DNA of 12,574 nucleotides, taken from NCBI GenBank assembly GCA_934667465.1, contig CAKUMG010000078.1:1-12574 (forward strand), written 5' to 3'. The notes under the pieces were generated by a model. That model was not told where the DNA came from. It worked only from the letters and a program-made list of their open reading frames with translations, and ran no database searches. Source of the stretch: an uncultured Actinoplanes sp. Lineage in GTDB: Bacteria > Actinomycetota > Actinomycetes > Mycobacteriales > Micromonosporaceae. Shown here piece after piece: positions 3,993 to 12,574 of the stretch (position 1 is the stretch's first letter; each line of letters starts with the position of its first letter). A program made the position numbers and the translations under genes.

Positions 3993-4676
3993 ATGTTGCG
4001 CCGCGCCACCGTCATGACCCTGGGAACCGCCGTCCTCCTGCTGGCGGCGCCGGCCCCCGCCGAGGCGCACGGTTTCGAGTCCACCGTCTACGCCGAGATC
4101 ATCGGCGCCGGCGACGAGGTCCGGACGACGCTGCAGCTCGAGTACGACCTGTTCGTCGTCTCCGCCGCGGACACCCAGCGCGACGACCCACTGTTCCGGG
4201 CGGGCACCGAGGCGTTCGAGGCCCGCGACACCGAGGGCCAGGCGGCGGCGCTCAACGCCCACGCGGCCACGGCGACCCGGTACGTCACCGAGCGGTTCAC
4301 CGTCGCCGGCAGCGGAGGGCCGTGCGCGCCGGCCCGCACGGGCGGCTTCACGATGGGCGAGCAGGAGGGTGTCCCGTACGCGACGCTGCAGTTGACCTGG
4401 ACCTGCAAGAACGGAGCCGGCGGGCACGCCATCCGCAGCGACCTGTTCCCCGCCGGCGAGGATTACGTGCGGCAGAGCAAGACCTCGGTCACCTACGACC
4501 TGGACGCCCGGCGCGGCACCACCATGCTCGACGCCGCCCGCCCGGAGTTCTCCACCGAGCGGCCCTGGTATCAAAAGCCGCAGATCGCCGCGGCGCTGAT
4601 GATCCCGGCGATCGCGGCCGCGGCAGTGATCTTGAGAAGGCGCAGGTCTTCCAGGTCGGGCCATTCTCGATCTTGA
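3993..4676 (+). CDS. HupE/UreJ-type N-terminal domain protein with a single membrane anchor
   Basis: This is a 227-residue exported protein. The ATG at 3993 is chosen because MLRR gives the signal peptide (about 1-25, ending AEA) its positive N-terminus; an in-frame ATG at 4014 lacks it. Neither has a clear ribosome site, so a leaderless message is possible. Cleavage after AEA would leave His26 as the mature N-terminus (HGFESTVYAEI). The body (about 26-195) resembles the extracellular N-terminal domain of actinobacterial HupE/UreJ-family proteins. Shared features include the LEYDLFVVSAAD and DDPLFRAGTEAFE stretches, two Cys (GGPCAP, WTCKN) and FSTERPWYQK just before the membrane. The usual multi-span HupE domain is absent. 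Instead one hydrophobic segment (about 198-214) precedes RRRR and the stop. Family HupE domains are linked to Ni/Co uptake, but this protein lacks the transport part. Function is unknown; metal binding outside the membrane is inference. Confidence 0.7.
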   Translation: MLRRATVMTLGTAVLLLAAPAPAEAHGFESTVYAEIIGAGDEVRTTLQLEYDLFVVSAADTQRDDPLFRAGTEAFEARDTEGQAAALNAHAATATRYVTERFTVAGSGGPCAPARTGGFTMGEQEGVPYATLQLTWTCKNGAGGHAIRSDLFPAGEDYVRQSKTSVTYDLDARRGTTMLDAARPEFSTERPWYQKPQIAAALMIPAIAAAAVILRRRRSSRSGHSRS

Positions 4677-4680
4677 TCTT

Positions 4681-4702
4681 GTTCACGCCCGGTTCATCGG
4701 AC
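4681..4702 (+). promoter_or_regulatory. Candidate PHO box (PhoP-binding direct repeats)
   Basis: Two contiguous 11-mers, GTTCACGCCCG and GTTCATCGGAC, share GTTCA in exact 11-bp register. Against the Streptomyces PhoP unit G(G/T)TCAYYYR(G/C)G they match 9 and 8 of 11 positions. The pair ends 66 nt before the ATG of a secreted phosphatase-like gene. A possible -10 (GATCCT, 4714-4719) would place the second unit over the -35 region, as at activated Pho promoters. Regulation by phosphate starvation is inferred from site and gene function together. Confidence 0.55.
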
Positions 4703-4768
4703 GCAGAAAGCTTGATCCTGCACGTTTTCTTTCACGTCCTCACCCGAGGATCACAAGGGACGGAACCG

Positions 4769-6724
4769 ATGAACCTCAGTACCTCTCGCCGCGTGGCCGC
4801 CGGGGCCACCGCGGCGGCCCTGGGCCTCTCCATGGCCCTCGGCACCGGCCTCTGGGCGCCCGCGAGCGCCGCCGAGGCCACCGCTCCCACCAGCATCATC
4901 CTCGGCGTCGGTGCGAGCGAGACCCAGCGCATCGTCACCTGGTACACCAGCGTCGACACCGCGCAGACGGTCCAGCTGGCACCCACCACCGATGTGGTCA
5001 ACGGCGAGTTCCCGGCGAACGCCGCGACCTTCGCCGCGCTCGGCGGTGCGAACATCGCCTCCAGCGGCGGCTACAACCGGCATGCCACCCTGACCGGCCT
5101 GAAGGAGCACACCGGGTACTCGTACCGGGTCGGCTCCGCGGCCGACGGCTGGTCCCCGGCGTACACCTTCAAGACGCAGGACTTCGAGGGCGACTACGAC
5201 TTCCTGTTCTACGGCGACCCGCAGATCGGTGCCTCCGGCGACATCGCCAAGGACCAGGCCGGCTGGGTCGACACGGTCAACGTGTCGCTGGCCGCCAACC
5301 CCGACGCGGAGCTGCTGGTCTCCGGCGGCGACCAGGTCGAGACCGCCAACACCGAGTCGCAGTGGGACGCGTTCCTCGCGCCCGAGCAGCTCAAGAGCTA
5401 CCCGTGGGCGCCCACCATCGGCAACCACGACGTCGGCGGCAAGGCCTACGAGCAGCACTTCTACACCCCGAACTCGGACCGCTCCGGCGCCTACTACTCC
5501 AACGGCAACCCGGCGTCCAACACCTCGGGCGGCAACTACTGGTACATCTACAAGGACACGCTGTTCATCGACCTGAACAGCAACAGCTACCGGACCTCGA
5601 CGGGCGGCGGCGGTGACGAGGCGCACGTCAAGTACGTGACCGACGTCGTCAACGCGCACGGCGGCGAGGCGAAGTGGACGGTCCTCGTCTACCACCACTC
5701 GATCTACTCGGCGGCCTCGCACGCCAAGGACAGCGACAACAAGGTGCGCCGGGTCGACTTCCCGACCGCCTTCTCAAAGCTCGGCGTCGACCTGGTCCTG
5801 CAGGGCCACGACCACGTCTACACCCGCAGCTACCTGCTGAAGAACGGCGAGAAGGCGAACCCGGCCGAGCAGCCCGGCCAGGACGAGGTCTTCGCGGGCC
5901 CCGGCGGCGTGCTCTACGTGACGGCGAACTCGGCCTCGGGCTCGAAGTACTACGACATCACGAAGCCGGACAGCAGCGGCACGAGCGGCGCCGGCAACGG
6001 TGCGGACCCGCTCAACCCGGACAGCTACTGGTACAACTCCGTGCAGAACCAGGAGCACGTCCGGAACTACACCAAGGTGCAGGTCCGCAACGACAAGCTC
6101 GTCGTCGCGAACGTGCGCAGCGGCACCTGCGCGGCCCCGAACGCCTCCGTCGAGAAGGGCAGCTGGTGCACCAACACCGAGGCGGGCCAGCCGGTCGGCT
6201 CGATCGTCGACAAGGTCACGGTGCGCCCGTACCACGCCGACGGCCAGCAGATCCAGGTCAGCGTCCCGAACGCCGCCCCGGGTGAGTTCGGCTGGACGAT
6301 CGACGGCTACAACGGCCTGGTGGACCTCGGCACCGCCGAGGAGCAGAACAACGAGTACTTCGCCGCGACCGGCACGATCAACCCGATCCTCGTGACGGAC
6401 AGCCGTCGCTCGCTGTCGCCGTGGTCGCTGTCGGCAAATGTCGGCGACTTCAAGGACGCCGACAAGACGTTCTCCGGCGGCTACCTCGGCTGGACGCCGA
6501 AGGTGCTGACCGCCGGTGCCGGCGCGAAGGCCGGGGCCGAGGTCCCGTCCGCGTACGACGACGGTGGCAAGGGCCTCTCGGTCTCCCGCGGCCTGGCCTC
6601 GGCGGAGCAGGGCCACGCCCGCGGTTCCGCCAAGCTCGGCGCCGACCTGGACCTGAAGATCCCGGGCACGGTCGACAAGGGCTCCTACCGCGGCACCCTG
6701 ACCATCACCGCACTGAGCAGCTGA
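4769..6724 (+). CDS. Secreted purple-acid-phosphatase-like metallophosphoesterase with C-terminal WxL-like domain
   Basis: This 651-residue exported enzyme probably hydrolyses phosphate esters outside the cell. AAGGGA lies 8 nt before the ATG. A signal peptide (about 1-34, ending APASA) is followed by a fibronectin-like purple acid phosphatase N-terminal domain (about 38-140). The calcineurin-like metallophosphoesterase domain then shows all its metal motifs: GDPQ (D150), GGD (D188), GNHD (N219, H220, D221), YHH (H309, H310) and GHDH (H347, D348, H349). A Cys pair (SGTC, SWC) lies at about 450-470. The C-terminal 150 residues look like a WxL domain. WSL (W552) is followed by SANVGDF, then a GGYLGW strand, and the chain ends in a GSYRGTLTITAL strand where Firmicute WxL proteins carry their second WxL. 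WxL domains bind peptidoglycan, so the enzyme is probably held on the wall with help from the DUF916 protein encoded next. The substrate is unknown. Confidence 0.88.
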   Translation: MNLSTSRRVAAGATAAALGLSMALGTGLWAPASAAEATAPTSIILGVGASETQRIVTWYTSVDTAQTVQLAPTTDVVNGEFPANAATFAALGGANIASSGGYNRHATLTGLKEHTGYSYRVGSAADGWSPAYTFKTQDFEGDYDFLFYGDPQIGASGDIAKDQAGWVDTVNVSLAANPDAELLVSGGDQVETANTESQWDAFLAPEQLKSYPWAPTIGNHDVGGKAYEQHFYTPNSDRSGAYYSNGNPASNTSGGNYWYIYKDTLFIDLNSNSYRTSTGGGGDEAHVKYVTDVVNAHGGEAKWTVLVYHHSIYSAASHAKDSDNKVRRVDFPTAFSKLGVDLVLQGHDHVYTRSYLLKNGEKANPAEQPGQDEVFAGPGGVLYVTANSASGSKYYDITKPDSSGTSGAGNGADPLNPDSYWYNSVQNQEHVRNYTKVQVRNDKLVVANVRSGTCAAPNASVEKGSWCTNTEAGQPVGSIVDKVTVRPYHADGQQIQVSVPNAAPGEFGWTIDGYNGLVDLGTAEEQNNEYFAATGTINPILVTDSRRSLSPWSLSANVGDFKDADKTFSGGYLGWTPKVLTAGAGAKAGAEVPSAYDDGGKGLSVSRGLASAEQGHARGSAKLGADLDLKIPGTVDKGSYRGTLTITALSS

Positions 6725-6730
6725 TTTCCC

Positions 6731-6764
6731 CAGCGGGGCGGGCGTCGTGCCCGCCCCGCTGTTT
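6731..6764 (+). terminator. Perfect 13-bp hairpin followed by TTT
   Basis: The arms 6731-6743 (CAGCGGGGCGGGC) and 6749-6761 pair perfectly around the loop GTCGT and are followed by TTTC. The hairpin starts 6 nt after the phosphatase stop, so it probably ends or attenuates that transcript. The T-tract is short, as is usual in high-GC genomes. Because the DUF916 gene starts only 22 nt downstream, partial read-through would set the ratio of the two proteins. Confidence 0.8.
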
Positions 6765-6773
6765 CACCGTGAA

Positions 6774-6780
6774 AGAAGGA
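6774..6780 (+). promoter_or_regulatory. Strong Shine-Dalgarno of the DUF916 gene
   Basis: AGAAGGA stands just ahead of the ATG at 6784, with only ACG between, so the spacing is short. It fixes the start because the frame remains open far upstream inside the phosphatase gene. Confidence 0.7.
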
Positions 6781-6783
6781 ACG

Positions 6784-7878
6784 ATGTCTCTCATCCGCAG
6801 CGCCGCCGTGGTGCTCATCACCGCCGCGGCGGTCGTCGGCCTGAGCGCCGCCCCCGCGCCGGCCGCCGAGGAGGGTGATGTCACCTGGACGGTCCGCACC
6901 GCCTCGAACAGCTACGGCGACACCCGCTCCAGCTACAGCTACGCCGTCAGCCCCGGCGGCACGTTCGAGGACGCGATGGTCGTCGCGAACCGCGGCAAGG
7001 CGCCGGTCGCGCTCGCCGTCTACACCGCGGACGGCTTCACCGCCGACACCGGCCAGCTCGACCTGCAGGGCAAGGGGACCGCCGCCACGGCGATCGGTAG
7101 CTGGGTCCGTGCGAAGAGTGAGCGCGTGACCGTCGCTCCGGGTAAGACCGCCCAGATCCCCTTCACCGTCGAGGTTCCGGCCAACGCCACTCCCGGTGAC
7201 TATGTCGGCGGCATCGTCACCTCTCTGTCACAGCCCGACCAGGCGCAGGGCATCACCGTCGAGCGCCGCCTCGGCATCCGCATCAAGCTGCGGGTGGGCG
7301 GCGAACTGGCGCCCGCCCTCGCCGTCGAGGACCTGAGCGTCGACTTCCACGGCACCGCCAACCCGTTCGCCGCCGGTGACGCGACAGTGCACTGGACGAT
7401 CCACAACACCGGCAACACCACGCTCTCCGCGCAGCAGGCGGCCTCGATCGCCGGCCCGTTCGGCTGGTTCAGGACCGAGGCGAGCGCCGTCGAGGCCCCG
7501 CCTGAGCTGCTGCCGGGCGAGACCTGGCAGGTCCAGGTCAAGATCAAAGACGTTTCCCCCGCCGTACGCCTGACGGCCACCGCCAACCTCACCCCGGTGC
7601 TCACCGATCCGTCGGGCACCTCGTCGGCGCTCGCCACCGTGAAAGCGACCGCGCACGCGTGGGCCGTCCCGTGGCCGCTCGCGCTGCTGGTGATCGTGCT
7701 GATCGCCGCGGTCGTGGCGCTGATCCTGCTGACCCGCCGCAACCGCGCCCGCCGCAAGCAGCGCGAGGACGCCCGCGTCGCCGAGGCCGTACAGCAGGCC
7801 CTGCGGGAGAAAGAGCCCTTGCAGGAGGAGAAGTCTGCTCAGAGCGGCATCGGATCCACATCGCAGTTGGCCCGCTGA
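6784..7878 (+). CDS. DUF916 / WxL-interacting membrane-anchored cell-surface protein
   Basis: This is a 364-residue protein. A signal peptide (about 1-28, ending APAPAA) precedes a DUF916-type domain (about 30-170). Its diagnostic features are a YAVSPGGTFEDAMVVANRG segment, GSWV, a VTVAPGKTAQIPFTVEVPA strand and ATPGDYVGGIV. A second beta-sandwich follows at about 175-292 (NTGNTTLSA, LLPGETW), matching the layout of WxL-interacting proteins, which have a peptidoglycan-binding domain and a host- or partner-binding domain. One transmembrane helix lies at about 296-319 and is followed by a highly charged cytoplasmic tail (RRNRARRKQRED). In Firmicutes such proteins are encoded beside WxL proteins, and here the upstream neighbour has a WxL-like tail, so a docking partner role is a good inference. 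The last 13 codons overlap the opposite-strand FxsT gene. The tail after KEPLQEEK may therefore be a recent read-through extension. Confidence 0.87.
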   Translation: MSLIRSAAVVLITAAAVVGLSAAPAPAAEEGDVTWTVRTASNSYGDTRSSYSYAVSPGGTFEDAMVVANRGKAPVALAVYTADGFTADTGQLDLQGKGTAATAIGSWVRAKSERVTVAPGKTAQIPFTVEVPANATPGDYVGGIVTSLSQPDQAQGITVERRLGIRIKLRVGGELAPALAVEDLSVDFHGTANPFAAGDATVHWTIHNTGNTTLSAQQAASIAGPFGWFRTEASAVEAPPELLPGETWQVQVKIKDVSPAVRLTATANLTPVLTDPSGTSSALATVKATAHAWAVPWPLALLVIVLIAAVVALILLTRRNRARRKQREDARVAEAVQQALREKEPLQEEKSAQSGIGSTSQLAR

Positions 7879-10800
7879 CCGGCGAGCGCGGCGACGATCG
7901 CCGGGTGCTCCGCGCCGAGCACCCGGCGGTAGCTGTCGACAACCGACTCGAACCGCCGCGTCCCCTCCTCGGCCCGCCGCAGCGCGATCATGTCGAAGGC
8001 CAGGTTCAGCGACGTGGCCAGCGTCGACGGGTGGTCGACCCCCAGCAGCCGGGTGGAACGCTCCGCCGTGTCCCGGTCCCGCTCGTACGCCGCGGCGTGG
8101 TCGCCCCGCATCGCCAGGTCGCTCGCCAGGTTGGTGGCGCACGTGAGGGTCAGGACGTGCTCGGCGCCGAGCCGCCGGCGCAGCCCCTCGTACGCCTTGA
8201 CGTCGTGGCCGTACGCCTGGTCCACCGCGCCGAGCAGCCGGAGCACGATCCCCAGGTTCGTCCGGGCATAGAGGGTGTACGGGTGCTCGGCCCCCAGCGT
8301 GACGCGGTACTCCTCCCAGGTCTGTTCTGCCAGGTCGCGGGACGCCTCGAGGTGGTCCTGCTCGCGCAGGTCCACGGCGTAGTTGAGGGCGCAGGCGATG
8401 GCCTCCGGGTTCAGCTCGCCGAAGAGCTGACGCAGCTCCTCCATCGTCTCCAGGGCCAGCTTGCGGGCGCTGTCGTGCTTGCCCGCGCGGCGCCGTGACA
8501 CCGCCAGGTTGCGCGCGGCCATCAGGGTGAACGGGTGCTTGCGGCCGAGCTTGGTGAGCACGCGCTCGTAGAGCGGCTCCTGTTGCCGGTTCGCCTCCAG
8601 GTAGGCACCGTATTCGCGCAGGTCGAGCGTGAGCCCGTTCTGGCTGAGCAGTGTGAGCGCGTGATCGGCGCCGAGCACCTCGACCCTGCGCTGCACGGTG
8701 TCCATGTCCTGCCGCAGCGCGGTGGAGAAGTCGCCCACGCTCCGCAGGCTGACGCCCAGGGCGTGCGCCATGCTCAGCGTGTGCGGGTAGTCGGGCCCGA
8801 AGACCCGCTCCGAGATCTCGTACGCCTCCCGGTCGAGCCGGACCGCTCCGGCGAAGTCCCCGGCGGCACGCAGGTCCGCGGCGACCAGGCTCATCGCGTC
8901 CAGCGTGTCCTCGTCGTCGGGCTCGTTGGACGCCCGCAGCTTCGCCAGGCAGTCGGCGTTGATCCGGGCCGCCGCCTCGAAGTTGCCGAGCACCCGCTCC
9001 ACGTGCCCCTGCCAGCGGGCGGCCTTGAGGATCTGCGGGTCCTCCGGATCGAGCATCTGGTTCCACCGGGCCACGGCCTCGGCGGCCAGGTCACGGCACT
9101 CCTTCTGCTCGCCCCAGAAGTACTGGAACTCGATGATGTCGATGGCCAGCTGGCGGGCCCACTCGTCCTCGCAGCCGATGAGGTCGGAGGCCCGGACGTG
9201 CGGCGCCAGCGAGTGGTAGCGCGGCCACTGCGTGGCGACCCCCGGATTGCCCGGGTTGCTCCCGGCCAGCAGCAGGTGCGCGGCGTGGCGCATCGTCTTC
9301 CGCTCGCCGGGCGGGATCTGGTCGGCCACCACGGTCCGGACCAGCCGGTGCAGCTGAATCGTGCGTTCCCGGTAGTCGGTGCGGGCGAGGCCGTACCGCT
9401 CGATCTGCCGGAAGGCACGGTTGAGCCGGCTCGGCTTCTGCAGGGTGGCATCCATGGCCGGGGAGATGTTGACGTTCTGCCTGCCCAGGAAGAGCTCCAG
9501 CGAGATCGGCTCCGGCGCCATGAACGAACAGGCCTGGAGCAACTGCAGCGCGACGGGGTTCTCCACGCCGAGCCGCTCCAGGGCCACCGTCCACGCGGCG
9601 GCGACCGCGACCTCGTACTCCTCGGGGTGTTCGATGCCGGTGAGTTCGGCCCGTTTCCGTTGCAGCAGGCCGAGGTACTCCTCGACCGGCATGTTCGTCG
9701 TCGCGCGCCAGGCGGCGGCCTGACCGACGGCGAGCGGCAGGTCGTCGAGGACCGCGGCGAGCCGGTCGGCCTGCTCCTCGCTGATGTCGCCGGGGTTCTT
9801 CTTGCGCAGCAGGGCGATGCTCTCGTGCCGGCTGAAGGTGCCGATCTCCAGGCTGTCGGCCTGGAGGGCCCATGCGTCGTTGCGCGAGGTGACCAGGACC
9901 TTCCCGGTGCCTCCCTGCGGCAGGTACGGCTGCACCTTCTCGATGGTCTCGGCATTGTCGAAGATCAAGAGCCAGTTGGGGTACGGGCTGCCGACCTGCA
10001 GTGCTTGCTGCACCGCCCGTACCGCGCCGGTCGTCTCCTGCCCGATGTCGAGACCGAGCCGCATGCCGAGGTCGATGAGCGCCCGGGAGATCTGGGTGGG
10101 CTGCTCGGCGGGGATGAACCAGACGACGTCGAAGTCGGCACGGTGCCGATACGCGTACTCCGTGGCGATCTGCGACTTGCCCACACCGCCGGTCCCGTGC
10201 AGCGCCTGCGGCAGGACCGCCGTCACCCGCTGGCGGCGGAGCCTGCGATCGAGGGCGTCCAGGAGCTCCTCGCGGCCGGTGAAGTCGCCGTTGCGCGGGG
10301 GCAGGTTCCCCCAGATCGCGGCCTCGGCCTCCGGCTGCATCAGCGCGTTGATCGAGGAGGAGCTGACCAACGGCCCGGGCGGAGCCGCCACGGTTCCGCC
10401 GCCCTGCGCGGGTCTCCGCCGGGGAGCGGGCGCGACGACAGGTGCCTCCGGGATGGGCGTGAACCGGTCGAGCCGGAGCTGGAGGCGGGTCGCCGGGGAC
10501 GCGTACGGGCCGGACAGCGCCCGCAGCACCGCGAGCTCCAGCCGGGCGAGGCCGACATTGTCCGCGGTGACGTCGATCTCCGGACCGTGCACGGGATCGG
10601 CCACGAGCCGCGCGAGGTCCCGCAGCTCAGGCCGGCTCTCCCCGAGCACGCCCGCCACCACCTCCACCACCCGTACGGTGTCGTCCCGCGCGGCGTGGGC
10701 GAGCAGCGCCTCCCGGACGCCGGGGCGGAAGCTCAGGTCGCCCGCGTCGTCCTCGGTGACCAGCAGCGGGCTCGTGACGACCTCCGCGAGATGCACCGGC

Positions 10801-11609
10801 CACGAGCCGGGCAGCAGATCGCCCTGCACCATGCGCAGGGCCTCCAGATCGAGGGGCGCGGACGCTGCGTACGTGGCGAGCCGGAACGCCTGTGCCGACG
10901 CCTCCCCCCGGAACGCGTGGACCAGCGACCGCGCATCGGTGCCCACCCGCTCGGCGGGCGGGACCGGCGGCCGCACCGGCCCGGACGGCCGGTCCGGGTC
11001 GGCGATGTAGGCGACCGCGTCGCGCCAGCCCCCGGCCGAACCGGCCACCAGCGACGCCCACCAGTCCAGCCAGCGGGGCATCAGCTCGAGCAGGGGCACC
11101 GCGACGGCCGACTCCGTGGGCGGCCGGGCGAACGGCGCCCACAGCTTGTCCTCCTGGACCAGGAGTTCGGCGTTGGCCGCCATGGCGTGCGACGCCTTCA
11201 GCCGCAGTTCCCGGGGCGCCAGGTTGGACCGTTTCCAGCGCTCCTGCGGGTACGGGTTCACGATGGCGACCGGCACCGCCCTGCCCCAGGCCTGCAGCAG
11301 CACGCCGGCCTCGCGCTGGGCCCAGAAGGCGTCCAGCCCGTCGGTGATCACCATGATCAGGGCCCCGTCGGGCCGGTCCACGGCGCCCCGGAAGTGGTCC
11401 AGCCGGTACGCGTTGACCCGGGCGAACTCGGCGACGGCCAGCTCGCGGAACGCGGACACCGTGGGCCGCCACACCCGCATGGACGTGCTCGCGTCGACGA
11501 CGAGGGCCAGCACGGACGCGTACCCGGAGAAGCGCCTGAGGTTGTCCCGCAGGCCGGCGCTGTTCGGCAGCGCCTCGACCGGATGCCAGGGGTGGCGTGC
11601 GTCCGTCAT
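7839..11609 (-). CDS. fxsT: FxSxx-COOH-system-type TPR protein: vWA-like (SAV_2336) + NB-ARC NTPase + TPR
   Basis: This 1256-residue cytoplasmic protein has no signal peptide. Residues 1-330 resemble the SAV_2336 N-terminal/vWA-like domain: LALVVDASTSM contains an intact MIDAS DxSxS (D39-S43), with ITDG (D90), VPVAIVNPYPQERWKR and LELMPRWLDWWASLVAG. A Pro-rich linker lies at about 385-425. An NB-ARC/STAND NTPase module starts near 430 (IWGNLPPRNGDFTGREELL). It has a P-loop GTGGVGKS (K478, S479), Walker B LLIFDN (D551), VTSRND near 575, and DLPLA near 620. A winged-helix-like region follows (QLHRLVRTVV). From about 800 there are about ten TPRs of 42 residues with the kinesin-light-chain-like signature LG.(E/D)HP.TL. 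Order and motifs match the FxSxx-COOH system TPR family in actinobacteria. STAND proteins usually oligomerise on nucleotide binding when their repeat domain senses a ligand. The sensed ligand and output are unknown. The ATG overlaps the upstream stop (ATGA), so expression is coupled to the VMAP-C gene. Confidence 0.85.
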   Translation of the reverse strand: MTDARHPWHPVEALPNSAGLRDNLRRFSGYASVLALVVDASTSMRVWRPTVSAFRELAVAEFARVNAYRLDHFRGAVDRPDGALIMVITDGLDAFWAQREAGVLLQAWGRAVPVAIVNPYPQERWKRSNLAPRELRLKASHAMAANAELLVQEDKLWAPFARPPTESAVAVPLLELMPRWLDWWASLVAGSAGGWRDAVAYIADPDRPSGPVRPPVPPAERVGTDARSLVHAFRGEASAQAFRLATYAASAPLDLEALRMVQGDLLPGSWPVHLAEVVTSPLLVTEDDAGDLSFRPGVREALLAHAARDDTVRVVEVVAGVLGESRPELRDLARLVADPVHGPEIDVTADNVGLARLELAVLRALSGPYASPATRLQLRLDRFTPIPEAPVVAPAPRRRPAQGGGTVAAPPGPLVSSSSINALMQPEAEAAIWGNLPPRNGDFTGREELLDALDRRLRRQRVTAVLPQALHGTGGVGKSQIATEYAYRHRADFDVVWFIPAEQPTQISRALIDLGMRLGLDIGQETTGAVRAVQQALQVGSPYPNWLLIFDNAETIEKVQPYLPQGGTGKVLVTSRNDAWALQADSLEIGTFSRHESIALLRKKNPGDISEEQADRLAAVLDDLPLAVGQAAAWRATTNMPVEEYLGLLQRKRAELTGIEHPEEYEVAVAAAWTVALERLGVENPVALQLLQACSFMAPEPISLELFLGRQNVNISPAMDATLQKPSRLNRAFRQIERYGLARTDYRERTIQLHRLVRTVVADQIPPGERKTMRHAAHLLLAGSNPGNPGVATQWPRYHSLAPHVRASDLIGCEDEWARQLAIDIIEFQYFWGEQKECRDLAAEAVARWNQMLDPEDPQILKAARWQGHVERVLGNFEAAARINADCLAKLRASNEPDDEDTLDAMSLVAADLRAAGDFAGAVRLDREAYEISERVFGPDYPHTLSMAHALGVSLRSVGDFSTALRQDMDTVQRRVEVLGADHALTLLSQNGLTLDLREYGAYLEANRQQEPLYERVLTKLGRKHPFTLMAARNLAVSRRRAGKHDSARKLALETMEELRQLFGELNPEAIACALNYAVDLREQDHLEASRDLAEQTWEEYRVTLGAEHPYTLYARTNLGIVLRLLGAVDQAYGHDVKAYEGLRRRLGAEHVLTLTCATNLASDLAMRGDHAAAYERDRDTAERSTRLLGVDHPSTLATSLNLAFDMIALRRAEEGTRRFESVVDSYRRVLGAEHPAIVAALAGQRANCDVDPMPL

Positions 11610-12574
11610 GAGCCGGCACCTTCCTCGGCGAGCACCCGGTACGGGTCGTCCCACAGCAGGGCCACCGACCTGCCCAGGTGGTCCGGATCGTGCGTGGCCA
11701 TCCGCTCCGCCTCCACGCGGAGGGCCCGCATCTCCGCCGGGAGCTTCGTCGGTTCGGACGCCACCAGCCGCCGCAGGAGATCGTCGACCGTCTTCCCGGC
11801 TGGTTCCTCGCGTTGGTCCCAGAGGATGACCGGGACGCCCGCGGCGATCGCGGCGACGAGCTCGGCGCGCCCCCGCTCGACCGTCGGCGGCTCGCTGAGC
11901 ACCACGACCACGTACCGGCTGTCGCCGTTGAGCTCCGTCGCCCAGCTGTCCACGTCGGTGTGCCTGGCCTCGTATCGCACGCCCCAGAGGACCTCGCCGG
12001 CGAACGGCTGACGGTCGAGCAGGCTCCACCTGTTGACCCAGTCGAGCCGCAGGCCGTCCTCCCGCATCCGGTCGGCGCTGCGGACCACGACCGGATAGCG
12101 GACGCAGATGGGCTGCACGAGGCCCAGCCGCGGGGCGGCGCGGTACCACTGCACCGGAAGGTTCAGCAACGGCATCGGCAGGAGGAACTCGATGGCGGCC
12201 TGGCCTGCGGCGTTGCCCTCGCCCCAGGCCCTCTCGGCCCCGGCCACCATGACGCCGACCGCCTCTTCGAGCTGCTCGATGCCGACGTCGGCGGCATCGC
12301 CCGCGCGGGGACCCCAGGGCCCGGCGCTGCCCTGCATGTGGCAATAGACCCGGTATCTGCTCCGATCGATGCCGTCCACCGTCAGCTCGATGAGCAGCAT
12401 GGGCCCGTGGCCCGTGCCCGCCGCCCGGGTCGCGGCGGCGTGGCGCAGCCGCTCCCGCAGCATGTCCTCGCTGCCCGTCCGGCCGGCGTGCGCGGCGACC
12501 CACGACCACAGCCCGGCGGCGAGCTCGGGCTCGGCGGTCTCGACCCGCCGGCCGAGCAGCGCCAGGAACAGGTC
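11606..12574 (-). CDS. VMAP-C domain protein, C-terminal part (5' end beyond window)
   Basis: 322 residues are visible and the frame is open to the right edge. The ATG at 12463 is probably internal, because the 37 codons before it contain no stop and read as ordinary protein (FLALLGRR, LWSWVAAHAG). The sequence matches the vWA-MoxR-associated protein C-terminal domain. It opens with LLIELTVDG, continues with YRVYCHMQG, IEFLLPMPLLNLPVQWY and RYPVVVRSADRMR, and has an AGVPVILWDQRE strand. It ends with the LLWDDPYRVL signature close to the stop. In known VMAP proteins this C-terminal part follows an N-terminal effector such as a protease-like domain; that region is outside the window. VMAP proteins are partners of vWA and MoxR or other NTPase components in proposed conflict systems. 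Here the coupled downstream gene supplies a vWA-like domain and an NB-ARC NTPase in one chain. Confidence 0.75.
   Translation of the reverse strand, partial: DLFLALLGRRVETAEPELAAGLWSWVAAHAGRTGSEDMLRERLRHAAATRAAGTGHGPMLLIELTVDGIDRSRYRVYCHMQGSAGPWGPRAGDAADVGIEQLEEAVGVMVAGAERAWGEGNAAGQAAIEFLLPMPLLNLPVQWYRAAPRLGLVQPICVRYPVVVRSADRMREDGLRLDWVNRWSLLDRQPFAGEVLWGVRYEARHTDVDSWATELNGDSRYVVVVLSEPPTVERGRAELVAAIAAGVPVILWDQREEPAGKTVDDLLRRLVASEPTKLPAEMRALRVEAERMATHDPDHLGRSVALLWDDPYRVLAEEGAGS
11619..11626 (-). promoter_or_regulatory. Shine-Dalgarno deciding the FxsT start
   Basis: On the minus strand GAGGAAGG lies 9 nt before the ATG at 11609. The frame continues open for 300 codons upstream, but that stretch is the antiparallel-free shadow of the VMAP-C gene. 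The ribosome site and the ATGA overlap with the VMAP-C stop support 11609 as the start. Confidence 0.75.

Follow-up and report, generated by a model that had tools for sequence, protein, structure and literature searches.

A MoxR-less VMAP locus in Actinoplanes in which a fused NB-ARC NTPase may do the job of the AAA+ protein

VMAP systems, which are predicted to act in bacterial conflict, are defined by a MoxR-vWA chaperone pair, and the literature drawn on here predicts their function only; in the parts of Kaur et al. (2020, PMC7159879) drawn on here, the gene order VMAP-MoxR-vWA is stated as strict. The stretch of DNA analyzed here (the window, 12,574 nucleotides) contains a VMAP gene that runs directly into a vWA fusion gene, which raises the question of what does the job of MoxR at such a locus. 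The features of the window are the following.

11606..12574, minus strand: last 322 codons of a VMAP gene (open-ended ORF, N terminus past the window edge)
11642..12361, minus strand: VMAP-C domain (PF20028 and an AlphaFold2 model with a CHAT/separase-like fold)
11606..11609, minus strand: ATGA shared by the VMAP stop codon and the vWA-NB-ARC-TPR start codon (read from the sequence)
7839..11609, minus strand: 1256-aa protein, vWA (SAV_2336)-linker-NB-ARC-DUF7779-TPR (translation, Pfam, NCBIfam)
10995..11522, minus strand: vWA domain, residues ~30-205, lacking the N-terminal extension that MoxR-bearing relatives have (NF041121, alignment)
11478..11495, minus strand: MIDAS-like motif DASTSM, residues 39-44 (sequence)
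9720..10268, minus strand: NB-ARC (AP-ATPase) domain, residues 448-630 (PF00931)
10173..10196, minus strand: P-loop GTGGVGKS, residues 472-479 (sequence position; retained in relatives)
9306..9557, minus strand: DUF7779, residues 685-768 (PF25000)
7842..9032, minus strand: TPR region, limits approximate, with the final tail ANCDVDPMPL (TPR_10 and TPR_12 in several stretches; NF040586 to residue 1255)
6421-7878, plus strand: WxLIP-like cell-surface protein, convergent to the fusion gene, ORF start uncertain
4322-6724, plus strand: purple-acid-phosphatase-like metallophosphoesterase, convergent to the fusion gene, ORF start uncertain

The two plus-strand neighbors are apparently unrelated to the VMAP/fusion pair. 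The partial ORF matched PF20028 over residues 72-311 of its 322 residues (E = 4.4e-43, 148 bits, cut-off 27), confirming its VMAP-C identity, which an earlier note on this DNA had proposed. Direct reading of the junction placed the ATG of the fusion gene at 11609-11607 and the TGA of the VMAP gene at 11608-11606, and the ATGA coupling claimed in that note holds. NCBIfam and Pfam likewise bore out a vWA-like (SAV_2336) domain, a STAND NTPase and a TPR region in one 1256-residue chain. The SAV_2336 model NF041121 scored 209 bits (cut-off 200) and covered profile positions 155-471 of 475 only, while the C-terminal 820 residues (436-1255) matched the FxSxx_TPR model NF040586 with 874 bits (cut-off 300). 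NB-ARC (PF00931), DUF7779, TPR_10 and TPR_12 all exceeded their own Pfam cut-offs; VWA_CoxE stayed below its cut-off (21.4 versus 26.4 bits). A structure model of the NB-ARC domain resembled NRC3, Apaf-1 and CED-4. The locus thus has a VMAP protein with a VMAP-C domain, a vWA protein with C-terminal effector domains (NF041121 barely over its cut-off, followed by NB-ARC and TPR) and, as in FxSxx-COOH systems, an FxSxx_TPR protein. The vWA-NB-ARC-TPR architecture and the link between VMAP and peptide processing were both already published (Kaur et al. 2020, PMC7159879, in the parts drawn on here). The tail RANCDVDPMPL (window 7842-7874) is strongly conserved at the C terminus of the TPR protein across relatives.

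A MoxR profile run over all six frames of the window gave nothing convincing (best 2.9 bits), in agreement with the earlier statement that no MoxR gene is in view. No MoxR AAA+ gene lies between the VMAP and vWA genes, and the ATGA overlap leaves no place for one. Because the two genes overlap, the ordinary ternary layout with MoxR just upstream was rejected for its canonical place; this rejection covers the window up to 12574. When genome contigs were scanned with a vWA alignment, 14 named loci were recovered. In eight of them (L001-L008) the VMAP gene directly overlaps the fusion gene by ATGA or GTGA, and no MoxR-like stretch was found within 10 kb on each side of the vWA match (best E = 0.21). 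The other six (L009-L014) carry a MoxR-like AAA+ gene between the VMAP and vWA genes, with aromatic N-terminal motifs, read by eye from an alignment, like those of the VMAP-type MoxR in the parts of Kaur et al. (2020, PMC7159879) drawn on here. Among the fetched loci, the clade of the window comprises ten (L001-L008, L015 and L016), all of which lack both MoxR and the N-terminal extension of the vWA protein. In one of them, from Paractinoplanes pyxinae (L001:9974-13760), the fusion ORF is split over two frames by a break or a sequencing error.

Of 300 Micromonosporaceae genomes, 91 matched PF20028 above its cut-off. By MoxR and vWA profiles, 125 of the 136 VMAP-C matches are followed by a vWA domain; MoxR lies in between in 86 of these and is missing there in 39. 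From them, 124 distinct loci were classified from fetched DNA, 85 as MoxR-bearing (L066 included) and the remainder as MoxR-less. The absence of MoxR is therefore a property of clades (8/8 close named loci, 39/124 family loci). Our literature search returned no report of MoxR-less VMAP loci, and the parts of Kaur et al. (2020, PMC7159879) drawn on here make no mention of them. An NB-ARC-TPR region followed the vWA domain in 39/39 MoxR-less and 32/85 MoxR-bearing family loci (in L064 it sits in a second frame), which is the co-occurrence expected from the idea, raised in the earlier note, that NB-ARC replaces MoxR. A gene for an aKG-HExxH hydroxylase was located nearby in 39/39 MoxR-less loci, in 31/32 MoxR-bearing loci with NB-ARC and in 0/53 MoxR-bearing loci without it. 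In a class-level sample of 394 genomes, 64 carried VMAP-C with E no higher than 1e-15. One of these was part of the earlier count; in the remaining 63, MoxR was found beside 81 of 86 VMAP-C matches. The five exceptions consist of two intact loci (L127 and L128), whose MoxR-less VMAP, vWA-NB-ARC-TPR and HExxH make-up is that of the family loci, two contig ends (L129 and L130) and an apparent VMAP-vWA remnant (L126) with weak VMAP-C, a 486-aa vWA ORF and no NB-ARC. Frequent as they are in Micromonosporaceae, MoxR-less loci are thus uncommon across the class sample. Among the intact surveyed loci, the counts suggest that MoxR was lost only where NB-ARC-TPR is present.

Such systems would still be ternary if a VMAP-type MoxR gene at another place in the genome acted in trans. 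Several genomes with MoxR-less loci do hold MoxR-bearing VMAP loci as well (for example G001, G004, G007 and G008). However, 22 of the 91 VMAP-C genomes contained MoxR-less VMAP loci only and gave no VMAP-type MoxR match, with every MoxR candidate scored in three of them (G003, G005 and G006) and the best 27 candidates per genome in the other 19. In the three fully scored genomes no VMAP-type MoxR was found, with 32 and 41 bits compared to at least 237 for MoxR beside VMAP-C in the same search. We therefore regard action in trans as improbable. Still less credible, and strongly disfavored, is the proposal that the MoxR-less loci are what is left of ternary systems in decay. L126 does have the look of a remnant and the fusion ORF of L001 is broken, but 38 of the 39 family loci have an open fusion frame of at least 1235 codons, P-loops and the hydroxylase gene are kept, and MoxR-less clades are well supported, with up to 17 members.

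To follow the history of the two NTPases, presence and absence were traced on trees, with the row of the window scored as MoxR-less. On the vWA tree, NB-ARC-TPR required one change and MoxR five. The NB-ARC-TPR tree also required five changes for MoxR, all of them forced by well supported branches in a careful search, and 0% of 200 bootstrap trees showed a single MoxR change. On the VMAP-C tree, MoxR again changed five times (four forced) and NB-ARC-TPR four times. A single clade of all MoxR-less rows was rejected (p-AU = 1.5e-9). These trees alone do not separate loss from gain. In NB-ARC loci, the grouping of the MoxR proteins mirrors that of their partner proteins, and MoxR and NB-ARC-TPR distances correlate (Spearman 0.84, with 0/999 permutations as high); inheritance with later loss is therefore likelier than repeated gain, which suggests that MoxR was lost several separate times. 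NB-ARC lineages account for 47% of the branch length (share 0.47), and the chance that five random losses, proportional to length, would all fall within them is ~0.02, which is suggestive only. Since both NTPases coexist in 32 loci, NB-ARC-TPR is at most permissive for the loss of MoxR, and its co-occurrence with MoxR absence does not show replacement.

The vWA domain of the window lacks the N-terminal helical extension of vWA proteins in VMAP ternary systems: the SAV_2336 match starts without the first 154 profile positions, and the alignment agrees, whereas L010, a MoxR-bearing sister locus from Virgisporangium aurantiacum, matches positions 1-468. A profile of the extension, trained on 45 of the MoxR-bearing rows, matched 76/85 MoxR-bearing and 1/39 MoxR-less proteins. 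Because four MoxR-bearing loci (L055, L058, L063 and L069) gave no match, the coupling of extension and MoxR is not strict; perhaps these loci represent an intermediate state before MoxR loss. In five further MoxR-bearing misses (L064, L066, L079, L091 and L112), the vWA frames were either split or matched in part. Among MoxR-less clades, the largest (17 loci: L025-L030, L039, L040, L043, L044, L047, L048, L051-L053, L059 and L060) has a degraded vWA metal site, reading DDDPVM and THG in most members. Judging from these residues, metal binding by the vWA domain may have been lost there, and binding at the metal site cannot be a general feature. In the clade of the window the metal motif is mostly kept, with the exact DxSxS residues in 7/11 rows and the motif-3 Asp in 11/11. 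Among the MoxR-less loci, 37/39 displayed the P-loop pattern and 38/39 the Walker B pattern, the exceptions to the NB-ARC motifs being L001, due to its frame split, and L034 (P-loop SLGGTGKT). These data bear on an alternative that we consider unlikely, in which MoxR became dispensable after the NB-ARC-TPR fusion without NB-ARC taking over its job, the vWA domain only docking VMAP and switching occurring by other means. Loss of the extension, and retention of a vWA domain with a degraded metal site in the largest clade, fit such a docking role. The nearly constant P-loop and Walker B patterns and the largely intact metal motif of the window's clade argue against it.

What VMAP itself might contribute was approached with an AlphaFold2 model of VMAP-C (mean pLDDT 89.9). 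Structure matches assigned the model a CHAT/separase-like, that is, caspase-hemoglobinase-like, fold, with low Foldseek TM-scores (query-normalized 0.34-0.44 in the first 13 rows). Profile-profile comparison of VMAP-C and CHAT by hhalign gave a probability of 0.2%, below significance, and no significant sequence similarity of VMAP-C to TPR-CHAT/Csx29 or separase was found. The resemblance, as modeled, is structural only. A catalytic His-Cys dyad was not found: no Cys is shared by more than 16 of 25 VMAP-C rows, VMAP-C reads LSxPP where 31 actinobacterial CHAT rows read LsAC (paired by motif order, not by superposition), and the best conserved His (window residue 299, 22/25 rows) is located after the expected motif. 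VMAP-C is apparently catalytically dead, and a predicted CHAT/separase-like fold without the dyad may bear on the whole VMAP family. The VMAP of the window ends at the edge before the VMAP-M and N-terminal effector modules, which were found in L008 and in L007, a four-gene locus of Paractinoplanes durhamensis. In the clade of the window this N terminus is purine-nucleoside-phosphorylase (PNP)-like (Pfam in L007 and L008, alignment of all ten loci), and a PNP domain is also present in VMAPs of its sister clade. Across clades the VMAP N termini vary between PNP-like, EAD2 and nothing recognized. At one locus, a 373-aa protein near the precursor gene (L028:1837-2958) has a C-terminal EAD2 domain (PF19956), as does the VMAP of that locus; its N-terminal part appears caspase-like by eye and has no Pfam match.

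The aKG-HExxH hydroxylase gene was found near all ten fetched loci of the window's clade, and NCBIfam confirmed it in the three that were scanned (L004, L006 and L007). In seven loci it precedes VMAP and shares its strand; in three (L006, L008 and L016) it lies downstream of the fusion gene in convergent orientation. Because its position varies in this way, its absence from the visible window, in which neither a HExxH gene nor an RxD-ending precursor was detected, is unsurprising. Upstream of the hydroxylase gene, a precursor ending in PPGRAD was present in 10/10 loci of this clade and in 10/10 of its MoxR-bearing sister clade. A small precursor adjoins the hydroxylase in at least 32/39 MoxR-less loci (by motif). 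With the hydroxylase gene in the flanks of all 39, the description of the locus as a two-gene system had to be abandoned. The suggested link between VMAP and FxSxx-COOH systems did not hold up either: the TPR protein matches NF040586, but PPGRAD is the ending of the precursors in the window's clade, so the system is not FxSxx-COOH proper. An FxSxx-ending precursor with a radical SAM maturase was not found in relatives; the radical SAM check covered four hydroxylases, which matched TIGR04267 and hit the radical-SAM/FxsBH model below its cut-off only. Constant hydroxylase genes and frequent precursors would also suit a system that acts not in conflict but in the control of cell development or of a peptide (RiPP) pathway, and PADLOC returned no defense-model match. 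The EAD2 domains carried by VMAPs in other MoxR-less clades and by one neighboring protein, the PNP-like VMAP N termini of the window's clade and the STAND scaffolds point the other way; EAD2, PNP-like N termini and STAND scaffolds are assigned to conflict systems in the parts of Kaur et al. (2020, PMC7159879) drawn on here. We consider a purely regulatory role a minority reading, on a par with mere docking.

By a narrow margin of belief, we favor the interpretation that the system of the window derives from the peptide-linked VMAP ternary system but lacks MoxR, whose job NB-ARC does. The comparative evidence is compatible with, and does not prove, a STAND NTPase in the former place of MoxR. 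From the observed components, gene order, repeated MoxR absence with NB-ARC-TPR and retained ATP-binding motifs, we infer the following functional steps. The small precursor would be hydroxylated by the aKG-HExxH hydroxylase, and this peptide, or an invader component, would be sensed by the vWA metal site, the TPR array or both. Assembly of NB-ARC, driven by ATP, would then do the work of the MoxR ring and rearrange the bound VMAP, whose CHAT/separase-like, apparently dead C-terminal domain could relay the change to the N-terminal module. In the clade of the window, the PNP-like N terminus would either produce a nucleotide signal or drain a pool of nucleotides. Overall, the arrangement would resemble an apoptosome, with a STAND scaffold and a caspase-fold partner. 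A bolder version, which we offer only tentatively, holds that VMAP-C is a dead caspase-fold adaptor and NB-ARC-TPR its apoptosome, that an Apaf-1-like wheel repeatedly replaced the MoxR ring, and that a hydroxylated self-made peptide triggers a nucleoside-cleaving VMAP N terminus. In the parts of the two papers drawn on here, Kaur et al. (2020, PMC7159879) let VMAP coordinate sensing, with the vWA tail as effector, and PMC10907252 proposes the reverse, with the vWA protein as sensor and the VMAP N terminus as effector. The MoxR-less loci fit the latter reading more simply, because the TPR protein could both sense and switch. Since several MoxR-less lineages have MoxR-bearing sister clades, the role of MoxR can be tested by swapping components between sister loci. 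The comparison suggests that one and the same module can work with either of two different NTPase switches, an AAA+ ring or a STAND wheel. If VMAP-C is CHAT/separase-like, the central component, unplaced so far, would acquire a mechanism, that of a caspase-fold adaptor, and VMAP systems would be tied to Craspase and to the logic of the apoptosome.

Among known systems, the closest is the RxD/acidic-peptide subtype of VMAP ternary systems with vWA-AP-ATPase-TPR, as described in the parts of Kaur et al. (2020, PMC7159879) drawn on here. The window shares the vWA-AP-ATPase-TPR fusion with it, and its relatives share the PNP-type VMAP N terminus with VMAP-M0, the zincin-like HExxH gene and the small RxD-ending precursor; in contrast to this subtype, the window has neither MoxR nor the vWA N-terminal extension, and its vWA gene directly overlaps VMAP. 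FxSxx-COOH systems are similar in that the C-terminal 820 residues of the fusion score as an FxSxx_TPR equivalog and differ in that their precursors end in FxSxx rather than PPGRAD. Unlike TPR-CHAT/Csx29 (Craspase) and separase, VMAP-C has no conserved Cys at the expected motif. Compared to the Apaf-1, CED-4 and plant NLR scaffolds, the fusion is bacterial, carries an N-terminal vWA domain instead of CARD, TIR or CC, and has as its partner an apparently inactive VMAP with a predicted CHAT-like fold.
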